The notes beneath the pieces were generated by a model, which worked only from the letters and a program-made list of their open reading frames with translations, ran no database searches and was not told the origin of the DNA. A stretch of DNA of 37,481 nucleotides from Bacillota bacterium (GTDB taxonomy: Bacteria > Bacillota > Clostridia > Ch29). The stretch spans positions 1 through 37,481 of the forward strand of contig JAQUCT010000012.1 in assembly GCA_028686075.1 (NCBI GenBank), written 5' to 3'. Shown piece by piece: positions 190 to 37,481 of this stretch (the stretch's first letter is position 1; each line of letters opens with the position of its first letter). Made by a program: the position numbers and the translations under genes.

Positions 190-240
190 GGGGACGATTC
201 CTGCGGACTCGAAGACACGGGGAAACCAGGGGGACGGTTC
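190..240 (+). repeat. Two orphan copies of the GGGGACGGTTC core repeat
   Basis: GGGGACGATTC (190-200, one change) and GGGGACGGTTC (230-240) are each preceded by GGGGAAACCAG or GGAAACCAG. They match the core found in hairpins elsewhere in the window (4419, 17673, 20572, 23817, 23869). Here no clear complementary right arm follows, so these look like decayed or partial copies. Confidence 0.6.
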
Positions 241-280
241 TAGGCCACTGAAAAAGCCCCTTTTTGTTATACTGAGCGGC

Positions 281-426
281 CCTGTCATCCTGAGCGATAG
301 CGAAGGATCTATCTCCAAGTAAGATTCTTCGGGCTTCGCCCTCAGAACGACATAGTCGGATTCTTGGGGCTTCGCCCTCACAATGACAGATAAAGGAATG
401 TAATACAATTGATACGTTGTATATAG
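281..426 (+). repeat. MITE-like element, copy A (left end truncated)
   Basis: It begins CCTGTCATCCTGAGCGATAG and carries the shared AAGATTCTTCGGGCTTCGCC core, with a second GATTCTTGGGGCTTCGCCC copy at about 360. It ends with the terminal sequence GATACGTTGTATATAG at 411-426, the inverted match of the left end of copy E. The left terminal repeat is not visible. With the core repeats at 190-240 it fills the gap between the RND fragment and the TolC-like gene. Spurious reading frames cross it on the minus strand. Confidence 0.75.
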
Positions 427-462
427 CACCTAGCACCTATGTTACGAAGGAGGTTTACCATA

Positions 463-1644
463 ATGAAAAGAAAGCTTTTTGCAGTGGTTTTATGCCTTAT
501 TACAGCCTGCGCCCTGTTTACTTTCGCCGGGGCCGATGAGGCAGAGGATACTATGACCCTTACGCTGCAGCAGTCGGTGGACTACGCACTGGAGAACAGT
601 GCTGCCATTAAGCTTAGTCACACTGCGGTGGAAAAGGCGGAGGTAGGATACAAGGAGGCCAAAAGTGCCTATGATAAGGCGGATAAGGCAGGCGGATTGT
701 CTCGTGAAGATAGAATGCTTATGAGTTCACAAATGATATTTGAAAACTATAAGATGACCGAAGGATACTACAAAGAAATGGCGGATATGGGTAGAACCTT
801 GGCCGAAAAGGGCCGTGAGCAGACTATTGAGACTGTAAAGATGGCGGTGCAAAGCGCTTACTTTAACCTGCTGTTTGCGCAGGATAAGGCGGAGATACAA
901 AGGAGCATTCTGGATTCAGCGAAAAAGGATATGGATATAGCGGGCAAAAAATACGAGCTGGGTATGGTGTCCCAGGTGGACGTGCTTTCCTCCGAGGCTG
1001 CCCTGGAGAGTGCAAAGCTTGGTTATAACACTGCTACCAGGGACTTGGAATACCAACGCATGTCCTTTAATAAAACTCTTGGGCTACCCCTTAAAACCGA
1101 GGTTGGCCTTACCGACAGCCTGACCTTTGAAGAACCGCCGGGGGCCGACATTGAGGAGGAGGTTACCCTTGCCCTCCAAAACAGGTATGAGGTGATTGCG
1201 GCAAAGGAACAGTACCGGGTGAATGAATTAAACCACAAGCTCACGCTGGGCTGGTATCCCGAGAACACTTTTGTCACAAGGCAGGCAAGGTATGATATGG
1301 AAAGCACCCATCAAAGCCTTGTTAACGCCGAGCAGGACGTGGAGCTTTCGGTAAGAAAAGCCTATATGGATATGCAAAGTGCCTACGATAGCATAGGCGT
1401 ACTGTCCAAAAACGTAGAAAGGCTACAAAAAGCGTACGATATTGCAAGGCTTCGTTATGATACCGGCATGGCCACCAGCCAGGAAGTGGTGAATGCACTT
1501 AATGCATTAAACGACATTAAACTGCAGCACTTGCAGGCTGTCCACGGGTACAACCTGGCGAGGATACAGTTTGAGGCCTCAAGCGGTATCGGTATAGCAG
1601 CTGCGGCCGGTGGTGCCGGGGTTGCTGCACCCGGCGGTTTTTAA
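463..1644 (+). CDS. TolC-family (outer membrane efflux-like) protein without obvious barrel strands
   Basis: The protein has 393 residues. The start at ATG 463 is chosen because AAGGAGG lies at 447-453; an upstream ATG at 439 has no such site. Residues 1-23 form a signal peptide ending near FAGA. Two homologous halves follow, each with long amphipathic helices (LTLQQSVDYALENSAAIKL; a second half ending with LRYDTGMATSQEVVNALNAL). These are the repeated helical hairpins typical of TolC, with the hallmark Y-x-x-G-x-x-(S/T) motif seen as KYELGMVSQVDVL and RYDTGMATSQEVV. The stretches where TolC normally has two beta strands per half are replaced by helical or very short sequence. The tail is rich in Gly and Ala. 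It follows an RND pump gene and precedes a TetR regulator, so export is the likely role, but the barrel-less form makes a classical outer-membrane channel doubtful. Confidence 0.8.
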   Translation: MKRKLFAVVLCLITACALFTFAGADEAEDTMTLTLQQSVDYALENSAAIKLSHTAVEKAEVGYKEAKSAYDKADKAGGLSREDRMLMSSQMIFENYKMTEGYYKEMADMGRTLAEKGREQTIETVKMAVQSAYFNLLFAQDKAEIQRSILDSAKKDMDIAGKKYELGMVSQVDVLSSEAALESAKLGYNTATRDLEYQRMSFNKTLGLPLKTEVGLTDSLTFEEPPGADIEEEVTLALQNRYEVIAAKEQYRVNELNHKLTLGWYPENTFVTRQARYDMESTHQSLVNAEQDVELSVRKAYMDMQSAYDSIGVLSKNVERLQKAYDIARLRYDTGMATSQEVVNALNALNDIKLQHLQAVHGYNLARIQFEASSGIGIAAAAGGAGVAAPGGF

Positions 1645-1716
1645 CGGCAGAGGTGTGGAAGAGCCTTAAAGCGAAACGGGATAATGGATACATGGCGGAA
1701 CGGAGGGCATAAAGCT

Positions 1717-2289
1717 ATGATTGGGGTCGGCAAAAGAGAACAGATACTGGCGGCTGCGGCAGAGATTTTCAGTAAAGAAGGCTATCACAACGCCAGAGTT
1801 GAAGATATTGCAATAAAGGCCGGGATAGGAAAGGGAACTGTGTACGAGTATTTCAAAAGCAAAAAGGAGCTTTTCGAGGAGACAATATTCCATGTACTTG
1901 AAACCTACCTTTATGAAGCCCTGGAAAGCATAAGCGGCGTACAGGACCCGGTAGACAAACTTAAGTGCATAATACGCCTTCAGGCCTCCCTGCTGGACAG
2001 GAAGGGAAACATCGCAACCCTTTTTATGAAAAACTCCGCGGACATCCACAGGGAGATGCTGGACCGGCTTATTGCCTTCCGGCAAAGGGTGATTGATTTT
2101 ATCGCGGATATAATAAGAGAAGGAATTGAAGGGGGAGCATTCAGACCGGTGGACCCCCACCTTGCGGGTATCCTTTTTATGGGGGTGCTGCAGGAGGCGG
2201 GCACAATCCATCACAGCGGGTCAAGGATAAACGACCAAACTCTGGATACCATGCTGGATTACATGATTAACGGTATAGGGATTAATTGA
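1717..2289 (+). CDS. TetR/AcrR-family transcriptional regulator
   Basis: The protein has 190 residues from ATG 1717, which has GGAGG at 1702-1706; the in-frame ATG at 1684 lacks a good site. Residues 4-52 form the TetR N-terminal helix-turn-helix: KREQILAAAAEIFSKEGYHN, then VEDIAIKAGIGKGTVYEYFK, the recognition helix with the classic GxxxGTxYxYFxSK pattern. The remaining part is helical and would bind an unknown ligand. It lies 72 bases after the TolC-like gene on the same strand and probably represses the adjacent efflux genes, as is common for this family. The ligand is unknown. Confidence 0.88.
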   Translation: MIGVGKREQILAAAAEIFSKEGYHNARVEDIAIKAGIGKGTVYEYFKSKKELFEETIFHVLETYLYEALESISGVQDPVDKLKCIIRLQASLLDRKGNIATLFMKNSADIHREMLDRLIAFRQRVIDFIADIIREGIEGGAFRPVDPHLAGILFMGVLQEAGTIHHSGSRINDQTLDTMLDYMINGIGIN

Positions 2290-2297
2290 ACCATGCG

Positions 2298-2324
2298 GCG
2301 GGGCGATATGCTCCGCTGTTTTTT
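2298..2324 (+). terminator. Rho-independent terminator after the TetR gene
   Basis: Stem GCGGGG (2298-2303) pairs with CTCCGC (2311-2316, one G-T pair) around loop CGATATG. A TGTTTTTT run follows. It lies just after the TetR stop codon and closes the efflux transcript. Confidence 0.7.
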
Positions 2325-2426
2325 ATATTTTAACTTAAAGGATTCTTATGAGATATGTCGAAAAATAAAAGGAAGGGATTGGAATATAGCAGACTGTGTC
2401 TTAATAGAGAGGAGTGGAAAGGGCCT

Positions 2427-4136
2427 ATGCGTAGTTTCAGGAGCAAGATAACAGTAAGTTTCATATTTGTAGTACTTCTGGTATCTTTGATATTCGGTGT
2501 AATATCCGTAAGAAATATGAAAATTGAGGTGGAGGGCCTGGCGGCTAAGAAACTGAATGCCGATGTTTCACTTATCAACTATATGTTTGAATTCCAGTAT
2601 TCGGGTTTTTGGCAGATAGATAAAAGCGCCGGCGGTGACGGTATACTTTTCAAAGGCTATTATAATATGTACAACAATTCACATCTTATAGATACCATAA
2701 GCGGTCTGGTAGAGGGTACCATGGTATCCATTTATCAGCATGATAGTATAGTTGCTACCAATATTACCGATAGCACTGGCAAAAGAATAATGGGTGACGT
2801 ACTGGAGGATCGGGAAATTCTCGACACGGTGCTGGAGGAGGGGCAGCCCTATTCGGGCAATTCGTACATAGGAAACGAAGAGTATCTTTGTAACTACCTT
2901 CCCCTTAGGGACCAGTCCGATCAAACGGTGGGCATGTTGTTTATTGGAATTCCCACAAGGGACTACACCCAGTCCATAAACAATTTTCTGTTCAACCTGT
3001 GCCTGTGGGGTTTAGGCGCAGTGGCCGTTGCAATGTTTATTGCATACTTCCTTTCGGGGTCTATAGTGGGCCCGGTGCGGAAAATAATAGGTGCTATGGA
3101 CACGGCGGCAACCGGTGACCTTACGGCCAGGGCGGAGATTGGCTCCTCCGACGAACTGGGCAAGCTGGCCCAGGACTTTAACGATATGCTGGAGGCATTA
3201 AACATGTTTATGAAGGGCGTACAGGAGGCGGTTCTGAAGATTTCAGGCTATTCGGAAGGACTTGCCACTGCGTCTCAGGAAACATCGGCGTCATCTCAGC
3301 AAATGGCCACCAGCGTTCAAGAGATGGCTCAAAAAACCTCGATTCAGTTTGAAAGGACAGTCCGGGGCAAGGAATTGACTCAGGACATTTCGGTAAGGAT
3401 TAAAGAGGCCGCCGATCAGATAGAGGCCATACTGGACAGCTCCCGTGAGATTAAGGGCAGTACCGACAAGGGTATAAACATAGTGGAGCAGCTTAAAGAC
3501 AGAAACGAGGACAGTAACAGGGCCAACAGCGAGATAAAACAGGTGTTTGTATCCCTGGAGGACAGTACCAAAAGCATTGACGGGATAATAGGGGATATAG
3601 ACGAGATAGCGGCACAAACAAACCTCCTTGCCCTTAACGCAGCTATAGAGGCGGCCAGAGCTGGCGAAGCCGGTCGCGGATTTGCCGTTGTGGCGGAGGA
3701 AGTACGAAAGCTTGCCGACGACAGCCTGAGGGCCACGTCCCAGGTTAAGGAGATTGTGTCCAATATAAGGGCCAATATGGCAAGTGCCCAGCAAGCGGTG
3801 GATACAGGCCAGGAGGTTGCAAAGCACCAGAGCAGTGCCGTATTGGAGACAGCGGAGTTTTTCAAGAGCATCGCCGATGCCGTGGACGGTGTGGTGCAGA
3901 GCATAGGGGAAATATCCGAAAATTCCCGAAATATTGATGCGAGTAAAGAGGACCTTTTGGAACAGATTAAAGAGGTATCGGCTCTGGCCGACGAACTGAC
4001 CTCTTCGGCGGAGCAGATTGCGTCGGTCACCGAGCAGCAGGCGGCGTCGTCTCAGCAGTTGGCGGATACCTCTGGCCAGATGGAAAGCCTTGTGGCCGAA
4101 TTGGAAAGGGCCCTTGGGAAGTATAAGTTGAAATAG
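2427..4136 (+). CDS. Methyl-accepting chemotaxis protein (membrane chemoreceptor)
   Basis: The protein has 569 residues from ATG 2427, where a Lys/Arg start followed by a membrane helix begins directly ([18 protein letters not shown]); an in-frame ATG at 2355 would add 24 polar residues and has a poor site. Layout: TM1 about 8-28; extracytoplasmic sensor about 30-185, which looks like a single Cache domain (ends with [13 protein letters not shown]); TM2 about 193-213; HAMP about 214-268; then the long cytoplasmic coiled coil. The signalling tip is unmistakable: [20 protein letters not shown] followed by [20 protein letters not shown], which docks CheA and CheW. There is no C-terminal CheR-tethering pentapeptide. 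The ligand is unknown. No chemotaxis genes are adjacent. Confidence 0.93.
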
Positions 4137-28284: not shown

Positions 28285-28609
28285 GGTGGGAGTTATAGGA
28301 GACAGGGATACGGTGCTTGCATTTAAAGCTCTTGGTGTGGACATCTTCCCGGTGATAAGCCCGGAGGAAGCCAAAAAAGCCTTAAGAGCGATGGCAAGGG
28401 AAAAATACGCGGTAATATTTGTAACGGAGCAGGTTTCCGTTCAGATTGAGGATATGATAGGCGAGTATGAAAACGAAGTCCTTCCTGCCATAATACCGAT
28501 ACCCAACAACCAAGGTTCCCTGGGAATAGGGCTAAAGAGGATCAGGGAATCCGTGGAAAGGGCCATAGGAGTGGATATATTCTTCGAAAGAGAGGGAGAA
28601 GAGAATTGA
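28277..28609 (+). CDS. ntpG: V/A-type ATPase subunit F (central stalk)
   Basis: The protein has 110 residues from ATG 28277; a GTG three codons earlier (28268) is also possible. It begins [20 protein letters not shown], the family signature, and has the small Rossmann-like fold with [18 protein letters not shown] and [16 protein letters not shown]. It regulates and completes the DF central stalk. Its stop overlaps the TTG start of subunit A. Confidence 0.92.
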
Positions 28610-30381
28610 AACAAGGTAGAATAACCAAAGTTTCCGGTCCCCTGGTAATGGCTGAAGGCCTCGGAGATGCCAAGATGTTCGACGTTGTAAGGGTTGGGCC
28701 GCAGCGCCTTATAGGGGAGATAATAGAGCTAAGAAGTGGCGTGGCCTCAATTCAGGTTTATGAGGAGACCGCAGGTTTGAGCCCGGGGGACCCGGTGGAA
28801 AGTACCGGTGCACCCCTAAGCGTTGAGCTAGCTCCCGGTATAATGGAAGGTATCTTTGACGGCATACAAAGGCCACTGGACTTAATAAGGGAAAGAGTCG
28901 GATCGTATATAACCAGAGGGGTTGAAGTTCCGGCCCTTGACCATGAGAAGAAATGGGACTTTGTGCCCACCGCAAAGGTGGGGGATGAAGTTACCGGTGG
29001 AGATATACTGGGGGCTGTCAGGGAAACCATTCTGGTGGAACATCGGATTATGGTTCCCCACGGGATAAAGGGTAAGGTCGTAAAGATCAATTCAGGCGAA
29101 ATGACCATAGTTGAAACAATCGCGGAAATAGAGACACAAGACGGGGTCAAAGAGGTGCAGATGATGCAGAAGTGGCCGGTAAGAAGGATAAGGCCCTACA
29201 AGGAAAAACTGCCGCCTCTCCAGGCCATGACCACCGGCCAGAGGGTTATAGACATGTTCTTCCCGGTGGCAAAGGGCGGAGTTGCCTGCATTCCCGGACC
29301 TTTTGGAAGTGGTAAGACGGTGGTTCAGCATCAGCTGGCAAAATGGGCGGAAGCGGACATTGTTGTATACATTGGCTGCGGCGAGCGCGGGAATGAAATG
29401 ACCGACGTTTTGATGGAGTTCCCGGAGCTTATAGACCCCAAATCAGGGGAACCGCTTATGAAACGTACAGTGCTTATTGCCAATACCTCCAACATGCCGG
29501 TTGCGGCGAGGGAGGCATCGATATACACAGGGGTAACGATAGCCGAATACTTCAGGGACATGGGATATAACGTGGCACTTATGGCGGATTCTACCTCACG
29601 ATGGGCTGAGGCCCTAAGGGAAATGTCGGGCCGTCTTGAGGAGATGCCAGGCGAGGAGGGCTATCCCGCGTACCTTGCATCCCGTATTGCCGAGTTCTAC
29701 GAGCGGGCCGGAAGGGTTGTATGCGAAGGAAGCCAGAACCGCGAGGGAACAGTAACCGCTATCGGAGCGGTATCACCGCCCGGCGGCGACTTGTCCGAGC
29801 CGGTTACCCAGGGGACGCTCCGTGTTGTTAAGGTGTTCTGGGCCCTGGACGCATCCCTTGCGTATAGCCGTCACTTCCCGGCGATACATTGGCTGACCAG
29901 CTATTCGCTTTATTTGGATACTCTGGAGGACTGGCTGAAGGAAAATGTAAATTCCGAATGGGGAGAGCTTCGGGCAGAGGCAATGAAGCTTTTGCAGCTT
30001 GAATCTGAACTGCAGGAGATAGTGCGGCTGGTTGGTATAGATGCGCTGTCGGTTAAAGACAGGCTGGTACTGGAGGTAACAAAGTCCATAAGAGAGGACT
30101 TCCTGCACCAGAACGCGTTCCATGAGATAGATACCTATGCATCGCTAAAGAAACAGTTCGAGATGCTAAAGACAATACTTGTCTTCTACCATGAAGCCGA
30201 AAAGGCCATGGAGGCCGGTGCTTCCTTCAAGGATGTGGAAACCCATCCGGTACGGGAGAGGATATCCAGAATGAAATACTATAAGGAAGACGAGATGGAT
30301 AGAATAGAGGCCGTTAAGGAAGAGGTTAAGAAGGAACTGGAAAGCTTGGTTTCGGAAGAAGGGGGTGGGCTGAGTGCTTAA
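28606..30381 (+). CDS. ntpA: V/A-type ATPase catalytic subunit A
   Basis: The protein has 591 residues from TTG 28606. Domains: N-terminal beta barrel ([18 protein letters not shown]), the V-type-specific insertion of about 80 residues around 110-200 that F-type beta lacks, then the nucleotide-binding domain. The P-loop is [16 protein letters not shown] (about 230-245), with [13 protein letters not shown] (catalytic Glu) and [20 protein letters not shown]. Three copies alternate with three B subunits in the head and make or hydrolyse ATP. It overlaps both neighbours, so the operon is tightly coupled. Confidence 0.97.
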
Positions 30382-31756
30382 GGAATACAGAACCGTAAGG
30401 GAAGTTGCAGGACCGCTTATGCTTATAGACGGGGTAGACGGGGCCCACTTTGACGAGCTGGTTGAGATAGAACTTCAGGGCGGTGAACTCCGACGCGGTA
30501 AAGTGCTGGAGGTTAACGCCGACAAGGCTCTTATACAGCTGTTCGAGGGTTCCTCCGGTATAAACGCCAACGAGTGTAAGGTAAGGTTCTTAGGCAAAGG
30601 TATAGAACTGCCGGTGTCCTTGGATATACTGGGCCGTGTATTCGACGGGTTTGGAAGGCCGAGGGACAATGGACCAAAGATTATACCGGAAAAAAGGCTT
30701 GATATAAACGGTGCGCCTATAAACCCCACCGCCAGGGACTATCCTTCAGAGTTCATCCAGACCGGCGTATCGGCAATAGACGGACTAAATACCCTTGTAA
30801 GAGGTCAGAAACTGCCCATATTCTCCGGGTCGGGCTTGCCCCACTCGCAGCTTGCGGCGCAGATAGCCCGTCAGGCAAGGGTGTTGGGTACCGAAAGTAA
30901 ATTTGCCGTTGTGTTTGCGGCCATAGGTATAACATTTGAGGAAGCAAACTACTTTATAGAGGACTTTACAAGGACAGGGGCCATAGACCGTTCGGTGCTG
31001 TTTATAAATTTGGCAAATGACCCGGCAATAGAGCGTATAGCAACGCCCAGGATGGCACTTACGGCGGCGGAGTACCTGGCCTACGAGAAAAATATGCACG
31101 TCCTTGTAATACTCACTGATATAACCAACTACTGCGAGGCCCTAAGGGAGGTATCCGCAGCCCGTAAGGAGATACCCGGTCGAAGGGGTTATCCCGGTTA
31201 CATGTATACAGATCTTTCCAGCATATATGAGAGGGCGGGGAGGCTTATTGGTGCCGATGGGTCGGTTACCCAGATACCAATACTCACCATGCCGGAGGAT
31301 GATAAGACCCATCCTATACCCGACCTTACCGGTTATATAACCGAGGGGCAGGTAATACTGAGCAGGGAGCTCTACCGTAAGGGTGTTATGCCGCCCATAG
31401 ACGTTCTGCCTTCGCTGTCCCGGCTTAAGGATAAGGGTATAGGCGAGGGCAAGACGAGGGAGGACCACGCAGATACGATGAACCAGCTGTTTGCGGCCTA
31501 TGCAAGGGGTAAGGAAGCTAAGGAGCTGGCGGTCATCCTTGGTGAAGCGGCCCTTAGTGATATCGATAAACTGTTCGCGCAGTTCGCCGACGAGTTTGAG
31601 AAAAGGTACGTTTCCCAGGGCGAAAACGAGAACCGTTCAATAGAGGAAACACTGCAGATTGGCTGGGACCTTTTGGCCATACTGCCTAGGGCGGAGCTAA
31701 AAAGAATCAGTGATGAACATCTTGACAAATATCTACCGGAAAAAAAGGAGTTGTAG
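30374..31756 (+). CDS. ntpB: V/A-type ATPase regulatory subunit B
   Basis: The protein has 460 residues from GTG 30374, overlapping the end of subunit A. It is the non-catalytic head subunit: the normal P-loop is replaced by [20 protein letters not shown], the usual state for B. Other signatures: [36 protein letters not shown], and [20 protein letters not shown]. It contributes an arginine to the catalytic sites at the A-B interface. Confidence 0.97.
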
Positions 31757-31759
31757 GCC

Positions 31760-32410
31760 GTGGAGATACGAGTCAATCCAACCCGAATGGAGCTTTCTAA
31801 GCTCAAGAAAAGAATTGTGGTTGCGAGGAGAGGCCATAAGCTCCTAAAGGACAAACAGGATGAGCTTGTCAAGAAATTCATCGATATGGTGAAGGAGAAC
31901 AAGCGGCTCCGGGAGGAAGTGGAGAAGGAGCTGTCCCAGGCCTTCGGGCACTTTGTAATGGCGAGGACGCTCATGTCGGATCAGGTGCTGGAGGAGAGCC
32001 TTATGTATCCGGTGGGCAAGATGGATATAAAGGTTGCCAGGAGGAACGTGATGAGCGTACGCATCCCCGATATAGAAACAGTTTCCGTCGGCAAGGAGGA
32101 CAGGGAAAAGGAGAAAAGCCCCTTTGCCTACGGCTTTGCAGGCACCTCCGGCGAGCTGGACGATTCAATTTCGATACTGTCGGGAATACTGCCAAAGCTT
32201 CTTAAACTGGCGGAACTGGAAAAGGGCTGCCGGCTTATGGCCATAGAGATAGAAAAGACAAGGCGCAGGGTGAATGCACTGGAATACGTAATGATACCCT
32301 CCATGTCTGAAAAGATAAAATACATTACAATGAAGCTGGATGAGAACGAGAGGGGAAACGTCACCCGGCTGATGAAGGTAAAGGATATGATGATGGAGAA
32401 GGGCGTGTAA
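31760..32410 (+). CDS. ntpD: V/A-type ATPase subunit D (central stalk shaft)
   Basis: The protein has 216 residues from GTG 31760, three bases after ntpB. Long N- and C-terminal helices form the rotating shaft, with the family signature NPTRMELSKLKKRIVVARRG at the start and EIEKTRRRVNALEYVMIP in the C-terminal helix. It corresponds to gamma of F-type enzymes in position though not in sequence. It is the last of the nine ATPase genes and ends inside a terminator. Confidence 0.95.
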   Translation: MEIRVNPTRMELSKLKKRIVVARRGHKLLKDKQDELVKKFIDMVKENKRLREEVEKELSQAFGHFVMARTLMSDQVLEESLMYPVGKMDIKVARRNVMSVRIPDIETVSVGKEDREKEKSPFAYGFAGTSGELDDSISILSGILPKLLKLAELEKGCRLMAIEIEKTRRRVNALEYVMIPSMSEKIKYITMKLDENERGNVTRLMKVKDMMMEKGV

Positions 32411-33998: not shown

Positions 33999-35252
33999 TT
34001 GCCAAAAATTGTAGTAGAGACCAGTCCCCCGCTAAAGGGGACTGTTAGGGTAAGCGGTGCAAAAAACGCAATACTGCCAATAATAGCTGCAAGCCTTTTA
34101 TCAAGTGACCGGTGCGTACTGGATGAAACCCCCATGCTGGACGATGTGGAAATAATGTGTGAAGTGCTGGTATCGCTGGGGGCGGATATCAGGAAGACTG
34201 CAAGCGGCAGGATTGAAATAGATTCAAGGAATATAGACAACCACGAGGCTCCCTACGAGCTGGTAAGACGTATGAGGGCATCCTTCCTAGTAATGGGGCC
34301 TATACTGGCAAGGCTGGGAAAGGCCAGGATATCCATGCCTGGGGGCTGCGCCATTGGTACCAGGCCAATAGACCTTCATTTGAAGGGCTTTAAGGCTATG
34401 GGAGCTGAAATAATCCTGGGCTACGGTTATGTAGAAGCCAGGGCAAAACGGCTTAAGGGAGAGAGGATTTACCTTGACTTCCCAAGCGTAGGGGCTACCG
34501 AAAACATAATGATGGCTGCAGCCCTGGCAGAAGGAATGACGGTTATAGAGAACGCCGCCGAGGAGCCGGAGATAGTGGACCTAGCAAACTTTATAAACAA
34601 AATGGGCGGACGTGTTAAGGGTGCCGGTACCGATACCATTAGGATAGAGGGGGTGGAGGTTCTTGGGCCGGCGGTCCATACGGTTATACCCGACAGGATA
34701 GAAGCGGGGACCTTCATGATTGCCGGGGCCATAACCGGTGGAGACATTATTGTGGATAATATTGTACTATGCCACCTTATGCCAATAATAGCAAAGCTTA
34801 AGGAGGCCGGGGTGACGGTGGAGGAACTGGGTAACGGCGTCAGGGTGTGCAGCTCTAAGAGGGTGGATGCTGTGGACATTAAGACACTGCCCTATCCGGG
34901 CTTTCCTACCGACATGCAGGCCCAGATGATGGCTTTAATGAGCGTTGCCAGGGGTACCAGCGTTATTATCGAAACGGTTTTTGACAATCGGTATATGCAC
35001 GTGAACGAGTTGAGGCGCATGGGTGCCTACATTAAAATAGACGGCAGGAGCGCGGTGGTGCAGGGCATTCCCCGGCTGACCGGGGCAAGGGTTAAAGCTA
35101 CCGACCTAAGGGCAGGTGCCGCCCTGGTGCTGGCGGGGCTGGTGGCCCGGGGACAGACCGAGATATACGATATTCATCACCTTGACCGGGGATATCATAA
35201 CCTGGATAAAAAATTTCAAGACTTGGGTGCGAGAATCCAAAGAATTGACTGA
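33999..35252 (+). CDS. murA: UDP-N-acetylglucosamine 1-carboxyvinyltransferase
   Basis: The protein has 417 residues from TTG 33999 with GGGAGG at 33986-33991. It transfers enolpyruvate from PEP to UDP-GlcNAc, the first committed step of peptidoglycan synthesis. Motifs: [39 protein letters not shown] and [20 protein letters not shown]. The active-site cysteine that fosfomycin attacks is present (Cys117), so no intrinsic Cys-to-Asp resistance is predicted. In Bacillus spoIID comes next; here a convergent ribU gene follows. Confidence 0.97.
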
Positions 35253-35317
35253 GTTACGATAGCACAGGTGTTAGTTCATACCATTTTCAATTATAGCAAG
35301 TGGACTACGAAGACTTT

Positions 35318-35371
35318 ATATTAAAAAAGGATTTAATATCAAAGGGACATACTCATATTTGTATGTCCCTT
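35318..35371. terminator. Two hairpins between convergent murA and ribU
   Basis: ATATTAAA (35318-35325) pairs with TTTAATAT (35332-35339). AAGGGACATAC (35342-35352) pairs perfectly with GTATGTCCCTT (35361-35371) across an 8-base loop. Neither has an ideal T run, but the 11-bp stem between two converging genes is probably a two-way terminator. Confidence 0.6.
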
Positions 35372-35388
35372 GTATGTTTCCACTTTGT

Positions 35389-35964
35389 CTATTCATGCTG
35401 GTGGGCTTCGCTGCCGGAGGTAGCGGGTTCAATCCTAAGAACCTTTGCGACCGATTTATACACTAGTACCGTAAGTGCAGAGTTTGCCGAGGCCTTTATA
35501 AGGTTAAAGGGAATTATTATTGGCATTAGCATGGCCTTTACCGCTTCTGTCGGTACTCCGAGGAACTTTGTCGTGAAGTACAGGTTAAGCGGTATCATTA
35601 CCAGAGTCATACTAATGGTTCCCACCGTAAGGGCAAGCAGCGCTCCCTTGAAAGTGTGCATTTTCCTGTATATAAGCCCTGCTACTAAAACCATGGTACC
35701 GGTTGAAATCATGTGCATAAGGCCGCCTATCCATCCGCTCCCGGCGCTTACGGTTATTGCCTGGAACAGGGAAACCGCAGCGGTTATCATGAGTCCGGCA
35801 CCGGGACCGTACAAGAAGGCCCCAATAAGGGCGGGAACGTCCCCTGGCTCGTATTCTAAAAAGGGTGCTGCTGGGATTACCGGAAACCTTATTACCATCA
35901 TAAGTAAAATGGACAGTGCTGTAAGCAGTGCTAGTTTTACAAGTTTGTTTACATTTTGGTTCAT
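35389..35964 (-). CDS. ribU: Riboflavin ECF transporter, substrate-binding component RibU
   Basis: The protein has 191 residues and is very hydrophobic, with five to six membrane helices. The RibU signature is seen as EYEPGDVPALIGAFLYGPGA. It binds riboflavin or FMN outside the cell and works with the shared EcfA-EcfA'-EcfT module, which is not in this window. The call is strongly supported by the FMN riboswitch in its leader. The start ATG 35964 has AGGAGG at 35973-35978 on the complementary strand. A His/Glu-rich C-terminus follows the last helix. Confidence 0.93.
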   Translation of the reverse strand: MNQNVNKLVKLALLTALSILLMMVIRFPVIPAAPFLEYEPGDVPALIGAFLYGPGAGLMITAAVSLFQAITVSAGSGWIGGLMHMISTGTMVLVAGLIYRKMHTFKGALLALTVGTISMTLVMIPLNLYFTTKFLGVPTEAVKAMLMPIIIPFNLIKASANSALTVLVYKSVAKVLRIEPATSGSEAHQHE

Positions 35965-35965
35965 T

Positions 35966-36023
35966 GAATTTACCTCCTAAGAAAATAAAATTCCCCGCAA
36001 TATAATCTCAGGGAAATAAATTC
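35966..36023 (-). promoter_or_regulatory. Translational expression platform of the FMN riboswitch
   Basis: On the minus strand the ribosome site GGAGGTAAATTC (35966-35977) can pair over 12 bases with GAATTTATTTCC (36012-36023), ten Watson-Crick and two G-U pairs. Next to it CCCTGAGATT (36004-36013) can pair instead with the 5' strand of riboswitch helix P1. This gives two competing structures, so control by hiding the ribosome site is likely. Confidence 0.6.
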
Positions 36024-36028
36024 ATTCC

Positions 36029-36151
36029 AATCTTCTCTCATCCAGACTTTACTGTCGGCCCCGGAATCGCACCGGGTCAGCGTTGGCTCGCGGGCTAGCG
36101 GATCTTTTCCGCATTACCGCCGGTCGGGAATCTCACCCTGCCCTGAAGATT
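36029..36151 (-). ncRNA. FMN riboswitch (RFN element)
   Basis: On the minus strand the conserved RFN order is complete: AATCTTCAGGGCAGGGTG, then ATTCCCGACCGGCGGTAAT, CCCGCGAGC, GGTGCGATTCCGGGGCCGAC, and AGTAAAGTCTGGATGAGAGA, closed by GAAGATT, which pairs with AATCTTC to form P1. It senses FMN and switches off the downstream riboflavin uptake gene ribU. Confidence 0.96.
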
Positions 36152-36172
36152 ATATTTGGTTTTCTAAAATTA

Positions 36173-36358: not shown

Positions 36359-37399
36359 ATGGACGAAAAAGCCAAGTCTAAAAACAAGCCTATAAGAATA
36401 AAAAATAAAATCATGGCGTTAACCACAATCATTTTGATAATTACCCTTTCTATCGTAGGAATCATTGTCGAGAGAATAGCCACTTCAAGAATCGAAAACA
36501 GATTAGGAAATCATGCCTTGGACATAGCACATTCGGTTGCAGAAATTGAACAAATCAAACAAAACGTAGGGAAACCAGACGGGCACCTGATAATTCAACC
36601 TATTGCCGACGGTATCAGAAAAAAGACAGAAGCTGAGTTTATAGTGGTAATTGATATGAATAGGGTTAGGTACTCCCACTCGGTTCCGGACAGAATTGGA
36701 AAGACATTTGTGGGAGGAGACGAAGGTCCTGCTTTGCAGGGTAAGGAGTATACCTCTAAAGCGGTTGGAACTTTAGGTCCTTCCCTGAGAGCCTTTGTAC
36801 CTTTATATAATAATGACGGCCGGCAGGTTGGTGTGGTGACGGTTGGAATAATGATGACCGATGTCAATGCCTTAAAAGGGGAATTGAGGAGTTGGATATT
36901 CTTCGCAGTTACGCTGGGGCTTGTTATTGGTATTCTTGGGTCAAATTACCTTGCCGAAAACATTAAAAAAGCCATATTCGGTATGGAGCCCTATGAAATT
37001 GCCTCCATGTTTAACGAACGGGAAGCACTCCTGGAAGCTATTAGGGAAGGTATCTTGGCAGTGGACAAAAATGGCAGTATTACAGTAATAAACAGTGAAG
37101 CAAGAAGGATCCTGGGAATTCGGGACAATGTTCAGGGCCGCAATGTAACCGAAGTAATTCCAAATTCCAGACTAGTTGAAGTGATTGAATCGGGGGTGGC
37201 CGAATACGACCAGGAGCAGAGAATTAAAGACGTCCGGGTATTGACAAACAGGGTTCCGGTAAAACTGAAGGATCAAGTGATTGGGGCTATCGCCAGTATA
37301 AGGGACATGACGGAAGTGAATATAATGGCGGAAGAACTCACAGGGGTAAAAAAGTATGTTCAAGCAAAGAAGGGAGGAATCAAAGCTGAGGCTGCCTAA
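36359..37399 (+). CDS. CitA/DcuS-like membrane sensor lacking the kinase domains
   Basis: The protein has 346 residues. ATG 36359 has AGAAGGGG upstream. Layout: TM1 about 18-38; extracytoplasmic Cache/PAS-like sensor about 40-175 with the carboxylate-sensor signature RYSHSVPDRIGKTFVGGD; TM2 about 178-200; cytoplasmic PAS about 222-325 ending VIGAIASIRDMTEV. The next conserved stretch, MAEELTGVKKYVQA, is where CitA/DcuS kinases pass into the His-containing dimerisation helix. Here the reading frame diverges and stops 11 codons later, so the phosphorylated His region and ATPase domain (about 200 residues) are absent. It is a truncated kinase or a kinase-less sensor. The next gene overlaps its end in another frame. 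Confidence 0.82.
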   Translation: MDEKAKSKNKPIRIKNKIMALTTIILIITLSIVGIIVERIATSRIENRLGNHALDIAHSVAEIEQIKQNVGKPDGHLIIQPIADGIRKKTEAEFIVVIDMNRVRYSHSVPDRIGKTFVGGDEGPALQGKEYTSKAVGTLGPSLRAFVPLYNNDGRQVGVVTVGIMMTDVNALKGELRSWIFFAVTLGLVIGILGSNYLAENIKKAIFGMEPYEIASMFNEREALLEAIREGILAVDKNGSITVINSEARRILGIRDNVQGRNVTEVIPNSRLVEVIESGVAEYDQEQRIKDVRVLTNRVPVKLKDQVIGAIASIRDMTEVNIMAEELTGVKKYVQAKKGGIKAEAA

Positions 37400-37481
37400 G
37401 GGGATACAGCAGAAAACTCTGGAGCTGGTTATTAATATACTGAACAGGAGCAATAAAAGCTTGTCGGCCGATGAGATGGCA
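37356..37481 (+). pseudogene. C-terminal part of a CitB/DctR-type response regulator without receiver domain (cut by window end)
   Basis: A frame starting at ATG 37356, shifted +1 relative to the sensor gene and overlapping its last 44 bases, runs to the window end (42 codons). It reads MFKQRREESKL, then RLPKGIQQKTLELVINIL and NRSNKSLSADEMA. This matches the LPKG-x3-TLE-x7-17-LSA(D/E)E(V/M)A stretch that begins the C-terminal HTH domain of CitB/DctR-type regulators. The normal phosphoacceptor receiver domain (about 120 residues) is missing. It could start at this ATG (AGGGGT lies 9-10 bases upstream), making a free DNA-binding domain, or be a remnant fused by deletion. The end of the gene is not visible. 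Confidence 0.6.

Follow-up and report, generated by a model that had tools for sequence, protein, structure and literature searches.

A truncated citAB locus lacking about 1.03 kb at an assembly branch of a Bacillota draft genome: probably a recently arisen deletion allele or a chimeric junction

The window, the whole stretch of DNA analysed here (positions 1–37,481), is one entire contig (C37; JAQUCT010000012.1) of a draft genome of a Bacillota bacterium (GCA_028686075.1; 95 contigs, 1.95 Mb), and position 37481, where it ends, is an assembly break. Close to that end, on the forward strand, lies a truncated CitA-type sensor ORF of 346 aa (36359–37399, stop codon at 37397–37399). Pfam matches identify the two domains that characterize CitA-type sensors, an extracytoplasmic Cache domain (sCache_3_2, residues 42–171, E = 2.3e-26) and a cytoplasmic PAS domain (residues 220–302, E = 4.9e-9), and the candidate membrane helices are plain hydrophobic stretches flanking the Cache domain. 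SPOB_a (the DHp domain with the phospho-accepting His) and HATPase_c are absent from the ORF by Pfam; both are found in the intact 540-aa CitA of a relative, to which the ORF is 84% identical at the amino acid level. A first-pass annotation, made from the letters of the DNA, had described a kinase-less CitA-like sensor with Cache and PAS domains, and the domain searches bear this out. The ORF stops where CitA proteins go on with YVEALRxQxHEFxNKLHT, right before the phospho-accepting helix, and its final ~10–14 codons are regulator-gene sequence read out of frame.

A second reading frame, +1 relative to the sensor, starts at ATG 37356 on the same strand and is cut by the contig end (37356–37481). 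The two frames overlap by 44 bases (37356–37399). The +1 frame reads MFKQRREESKLRLPKGIQQKTLELV... and corresponds to the linker and HTH of a CitB-type regulator, with 84% identity to the tail of the relative's CitB; the CitB-like DNA-binding tail proposed for these 44 bases and beyond is thus confirmed. When the sequence is read past 37481, as had been suggested as a check of HTH completeness, a second contig (C83) completes the frame at 87 aa with a normal stop. This product has the C-terminal CitB/DpiA-like HTH that defines CitB-type regulators; its HTH_64 match (E = 1.2e-5) falls slightly below the curated cut-off, and the relative's intact CitB scores just above that same cut-off. The Response_reg receiver is absent across C37 and C83 and present in the relative. 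By eye, a weak Shine-Dalgarno-like AGGGG (37342–37346, forward strand) lies 9 nt before ATG 37356 and an A6 run lies ahead of the frame overlap; the regulator frame carries a stop codon, TAA, at 37347–37349, just upstream of the ATG.

Downstream of the 127 bp that it shares with the window, C83 carries the remainder of the HTH ORF followed by genes for malic enzyme, a 2HCT-family transporter, citC, citD, citE and citF. A malic enzyme/2HCT transporter/citrate lyase neighbourhood is the usual setting for citAB, and the truncated pair is linked to it through the 127-bp overlap. The neighbourhood upstream of the cit locus differs between the two genomes: genes for an NtrC-type regulator and a sensor kinase occupy it in the relative (235–3610 of its locus L015), and a MurA-like gene and a riboflavin uptake unit occupy it in the window (33999–36154). 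The uptake unit, an ordinary one that immediately precedes the sensor gene and runs on the other strand, consists of an FMN riboswitch (RF00050, 120 bits; 36026–36154, reverse strand) and, downstream of it, a gene for a RibU-like S component of an ECF riboflavin transporter (35389–35964, reverse strand). No close citA orthologue was found in the two other genomes of the bacterium's own genus.

In the nearest relative that has the locus (genome G005, loci L015 and L017), an intact citA (540 aa) overlaps an intact citB (228 aa), and the same operon follows. Compared with this arrangement, C37 and C83 together lack one single block of 1029 bp (L015 4901–5929), which covers the CitA DHp and ATPase domains, the start of citB and the receiver. 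The earlier suggestion that one deletion joined the two genes, removing the histidine kinase core and the receiver, is therefore supported by a single gap with 5–12 bp of microhomology at its edges. Its position does need correction: the junction had been placed near 37366–37372, but regulator homology already begins at 37355, where the preceding base is g in C37 and a in the relative's regulator. TATGT (37355–37359) is common to both genes of the relative and marks the minimal junction; in this strain the shared stretch is at most TATGTTCAAGCA (12 bp, 37355–37366), because the sensor codon that follows encodes a conserved Leu. Searches of the bacterium's own genome by protein and by DNA found no close copy of the missing kinase/receiver part elsewhere in the bin.

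The final 127 bases of the window (37355–37481, forward strand) match exactly the opening 127 bases of C83 read on its reverse strand, and the match reaches the very end of each contig. Read in this direction, C83 starts at 37355, precisely where regulator homology begins. At its other end C83 overlaps contig C72, also by exactly 127 bases. Seven exact end-to-end overlaps were found among 103 contig ends, every one of them 127 bp long; this count sets aside 7 contigs shorter than 3,000 bp, whose ends matched themselves and each other over all 400 bases and were taken as N. An unbroken ORF crosses two of the six other 127-bp joins (one of them, by eye, a full-length threonyl-tRNA synthetase, ThrS), and a long frame is absent across the remaining four. 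Exact end overlaps of fixed length are a signature of k=127 de Bruijn assembly, and de Bruijn contigs end at vertices having more than one way in or out. Since all seven overlaps measure 127 bp, we read them as k=127 vertices; judged from its contig ends, the C37/C83 break is such a vertex, a branch of the draft assembly. The first-pass annotation had suspected an assembly problem at 37340–37400, and the contigs do break at a vertex starting at 37355. Strain differences are one cause of contig breaks of this type (PMC8021871).

Sensor homologues were sought in 391 genomes of the class, and those that were well matched with E below 1e-16 and covered the query were counted as clearly full-length. 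Every other sensor in this group is intact, with an open frame of ~518–563 aa, and the search for the same arrangement in relatives thus came back empty among clearly full-length homologues. One short match, of 109 aa (G003:C9:201-395), begins ~200 bp from a contig start. In comparison with the relative, dN/dS is 0.06 for the sensor half and 0.09 for the HTH half, values like those of normal genes, and neither half carries further lesions; any truncation is therefore recent. These ratios neither prove nor disprove function of the truncated products themselves, because most of the divergence from the relative arose before any recent deletion.

Taken together, these observations make it very likely that the locus, rather than being a new signalling system, is a canonical CitAB pair from which ~1.03 kb is missing, either as a recent deletion allele or through a chimeric junction at an assembly branch. 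On this reading a standard CitA/CitB (DcuS/DcuR-type) pair stands in front of a malate/citrate fermentation operon, and the contig lacks a single segment of ~1.03 kb, whose flanks are joined across 5–12 bp of microhomology. With CitA/CitB (DpiB/DpiA) and DcuS/DcuR-type systems the locus shares a Cache and PAS sensor, an overlapping downstream regulator with a CitB-type HTH, and downstream genes for malic enzyme, a 2HCT transporter and citrate lyase; it differs from them by the 1029 bp that encode the sensor's SPOB_a and HATPase domains and the regulator's receiver. The k=127 branch vertex at the junction points to an intact regulator among the same reads: if intact and deleted paths were both sequenced, they should come together at the earliest base that the sensor and regulator sides have in common, which is 37355, the start of C83. 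An intact citAB version is thus probably present in the reads, its bypass path being deduced from the vertex. A bypass contig through the intact regulator would measure ~1278 bp, whereas no contig in the bin is shorter than 2556 bp, so the bypass would probably have been left out of the bin. A counterpoint is that C37 is unbroken on the sensor side near 37359, where a plain two-allele mixture predicts a break. Either the deleted path was the preferred continuation, therefore, or the sensor gene of the intact strain differs slightly. A join of at most 12 bp is too short for k-mer confusion (usual k at least 21), and some reads, real or chimeric, must therefore span the junction.

As to where the deleted form came from, it may be a deletion allele that arose recently and is carried by some members of the population, or template switching at the microhomology may have produced a chimeric junction. 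If the allele is real, we infer a loss of function: a pair deprived of the phosphorylatable His, the ATPase and the receiver would be expected to carry no phosphorelay. For MaeK, a sensor of the same family, growth on malate is lost when the C-terminal CA domain is removed (PMC5457438), and by analogy loss of signalling would be the expected effect of the deletion. The MaeK/MaeR system of Lactobacillus casei (PMC5457438) resembles this locus in belonging to the citrate family, in its link to malic enzyme and in having a sensor without a working ATPase. MaeK, however, keeps the DHp His together with a degenerate CA domain, the hallmark of its kinase-deficient type, and MaeR keeps its receiver; all of these are absent here, where the sensor ORF stops before the DHp domain.

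Both origins can be taken to extremes, and the likelihoods that we assign to the two resulting explanations partly coincide with the one given above for the general explanation. At one extreme the junction is a wholly technical artefact: a chimeric read or amplicon arose at the microhomology, and the cells hold intact citAB only. That the junction sits at the end of a contig on a branch vertex, that the microhomology is short and that relatives show only intact forms would all fit such an origin, but chimeric edges usually have low coverage and are pruned, whereas the assembler chose this path in building a contig of 37 kb. We regard this version as possible but on balance doubtful. At the other extreme the deletion is real and fixed in the species; citA and citB have recently become pseudogenes, and the operon is either unregulated or driven constitutively by the free HTH. 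That C37 has no other continuation than the one through the junction, that the missing part has no copy elsewhere in the bin and that the HTH is complete on C83 agree with fixation; a C83 start exactly at the junction homology, however, calls for a second incoming path, and a bypass contig would be smaller than any other in the bin and so could have escaped it. Fixation therefore seems unlikely.

If a natural deletion allele yielded a free, receiver-less CitB HTH and a kinase-dead sensor, the citrate/malate fermentation operon would come under signal-independent control in part or all of the population, a scenario that we consider improbable. The openly accessible literature yielded no earlier case of a CitB that acts alone without its receiver. 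A pattern scan of viral contigs gave no match to the regulator-side sequence. Were the deletion both real and selected, it would represent a two-component system switched to a constitutive or null state by one small deletion.

The first-pass annotation had also entertained a compact new system, in which a membrane PAS sensor controls a separate HTH protein or a +1 frameshift yields a membrane-tethered one-component regulator. Membrane-tethered one-component regulators are of the CadC/ToxR type, which this locus would resemble only if a frameshift fused the sensor and HTH frames; as it stands, membrane segment and HTH are not encoded in one polypeptide, the two lie in different frames with the sensor stop at 37397–37399, and the homology is to CitA and CitB. 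Although the sensor and HTH frames are each open, the HTH is complete on C83, and the A6 run and weak AGGGG noted by eye precede the overlap and ATG 37356, a compact system is very improbable: none of the other clearly full-length homologues among the 391 class genomes is truncated, the TAA at 37347–37349 in the regulator frame leaves ~6 bases for a frameshift, no sequence feature beyond the AGGGG and the A6 run points to use of the truncated products, the junction coincides with the start of an assembly-graph vertex, and one deletion at an assembly branch accounts for everything.

The contig does contain the junction, which may represent a real deletion allele; the compact system suggested earlier is unsupported. 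For genes with collapsed domain structures at the ends of metagenome contigs, we recommend a check for k-mer-length end overlaps before a new architecture is claimed. Two further features of the window lie away from the cit locus. Short repeats of ~35 bp within positions 1–300, parts of them at 173–300, are 83–96% identical to copies that recur at ~25 places in the genome, and constitute a dispersed small repeat family. Consecutive ORFs at 28606–32410 resemble, by eye, V-type ATPase subunits A, B and D.
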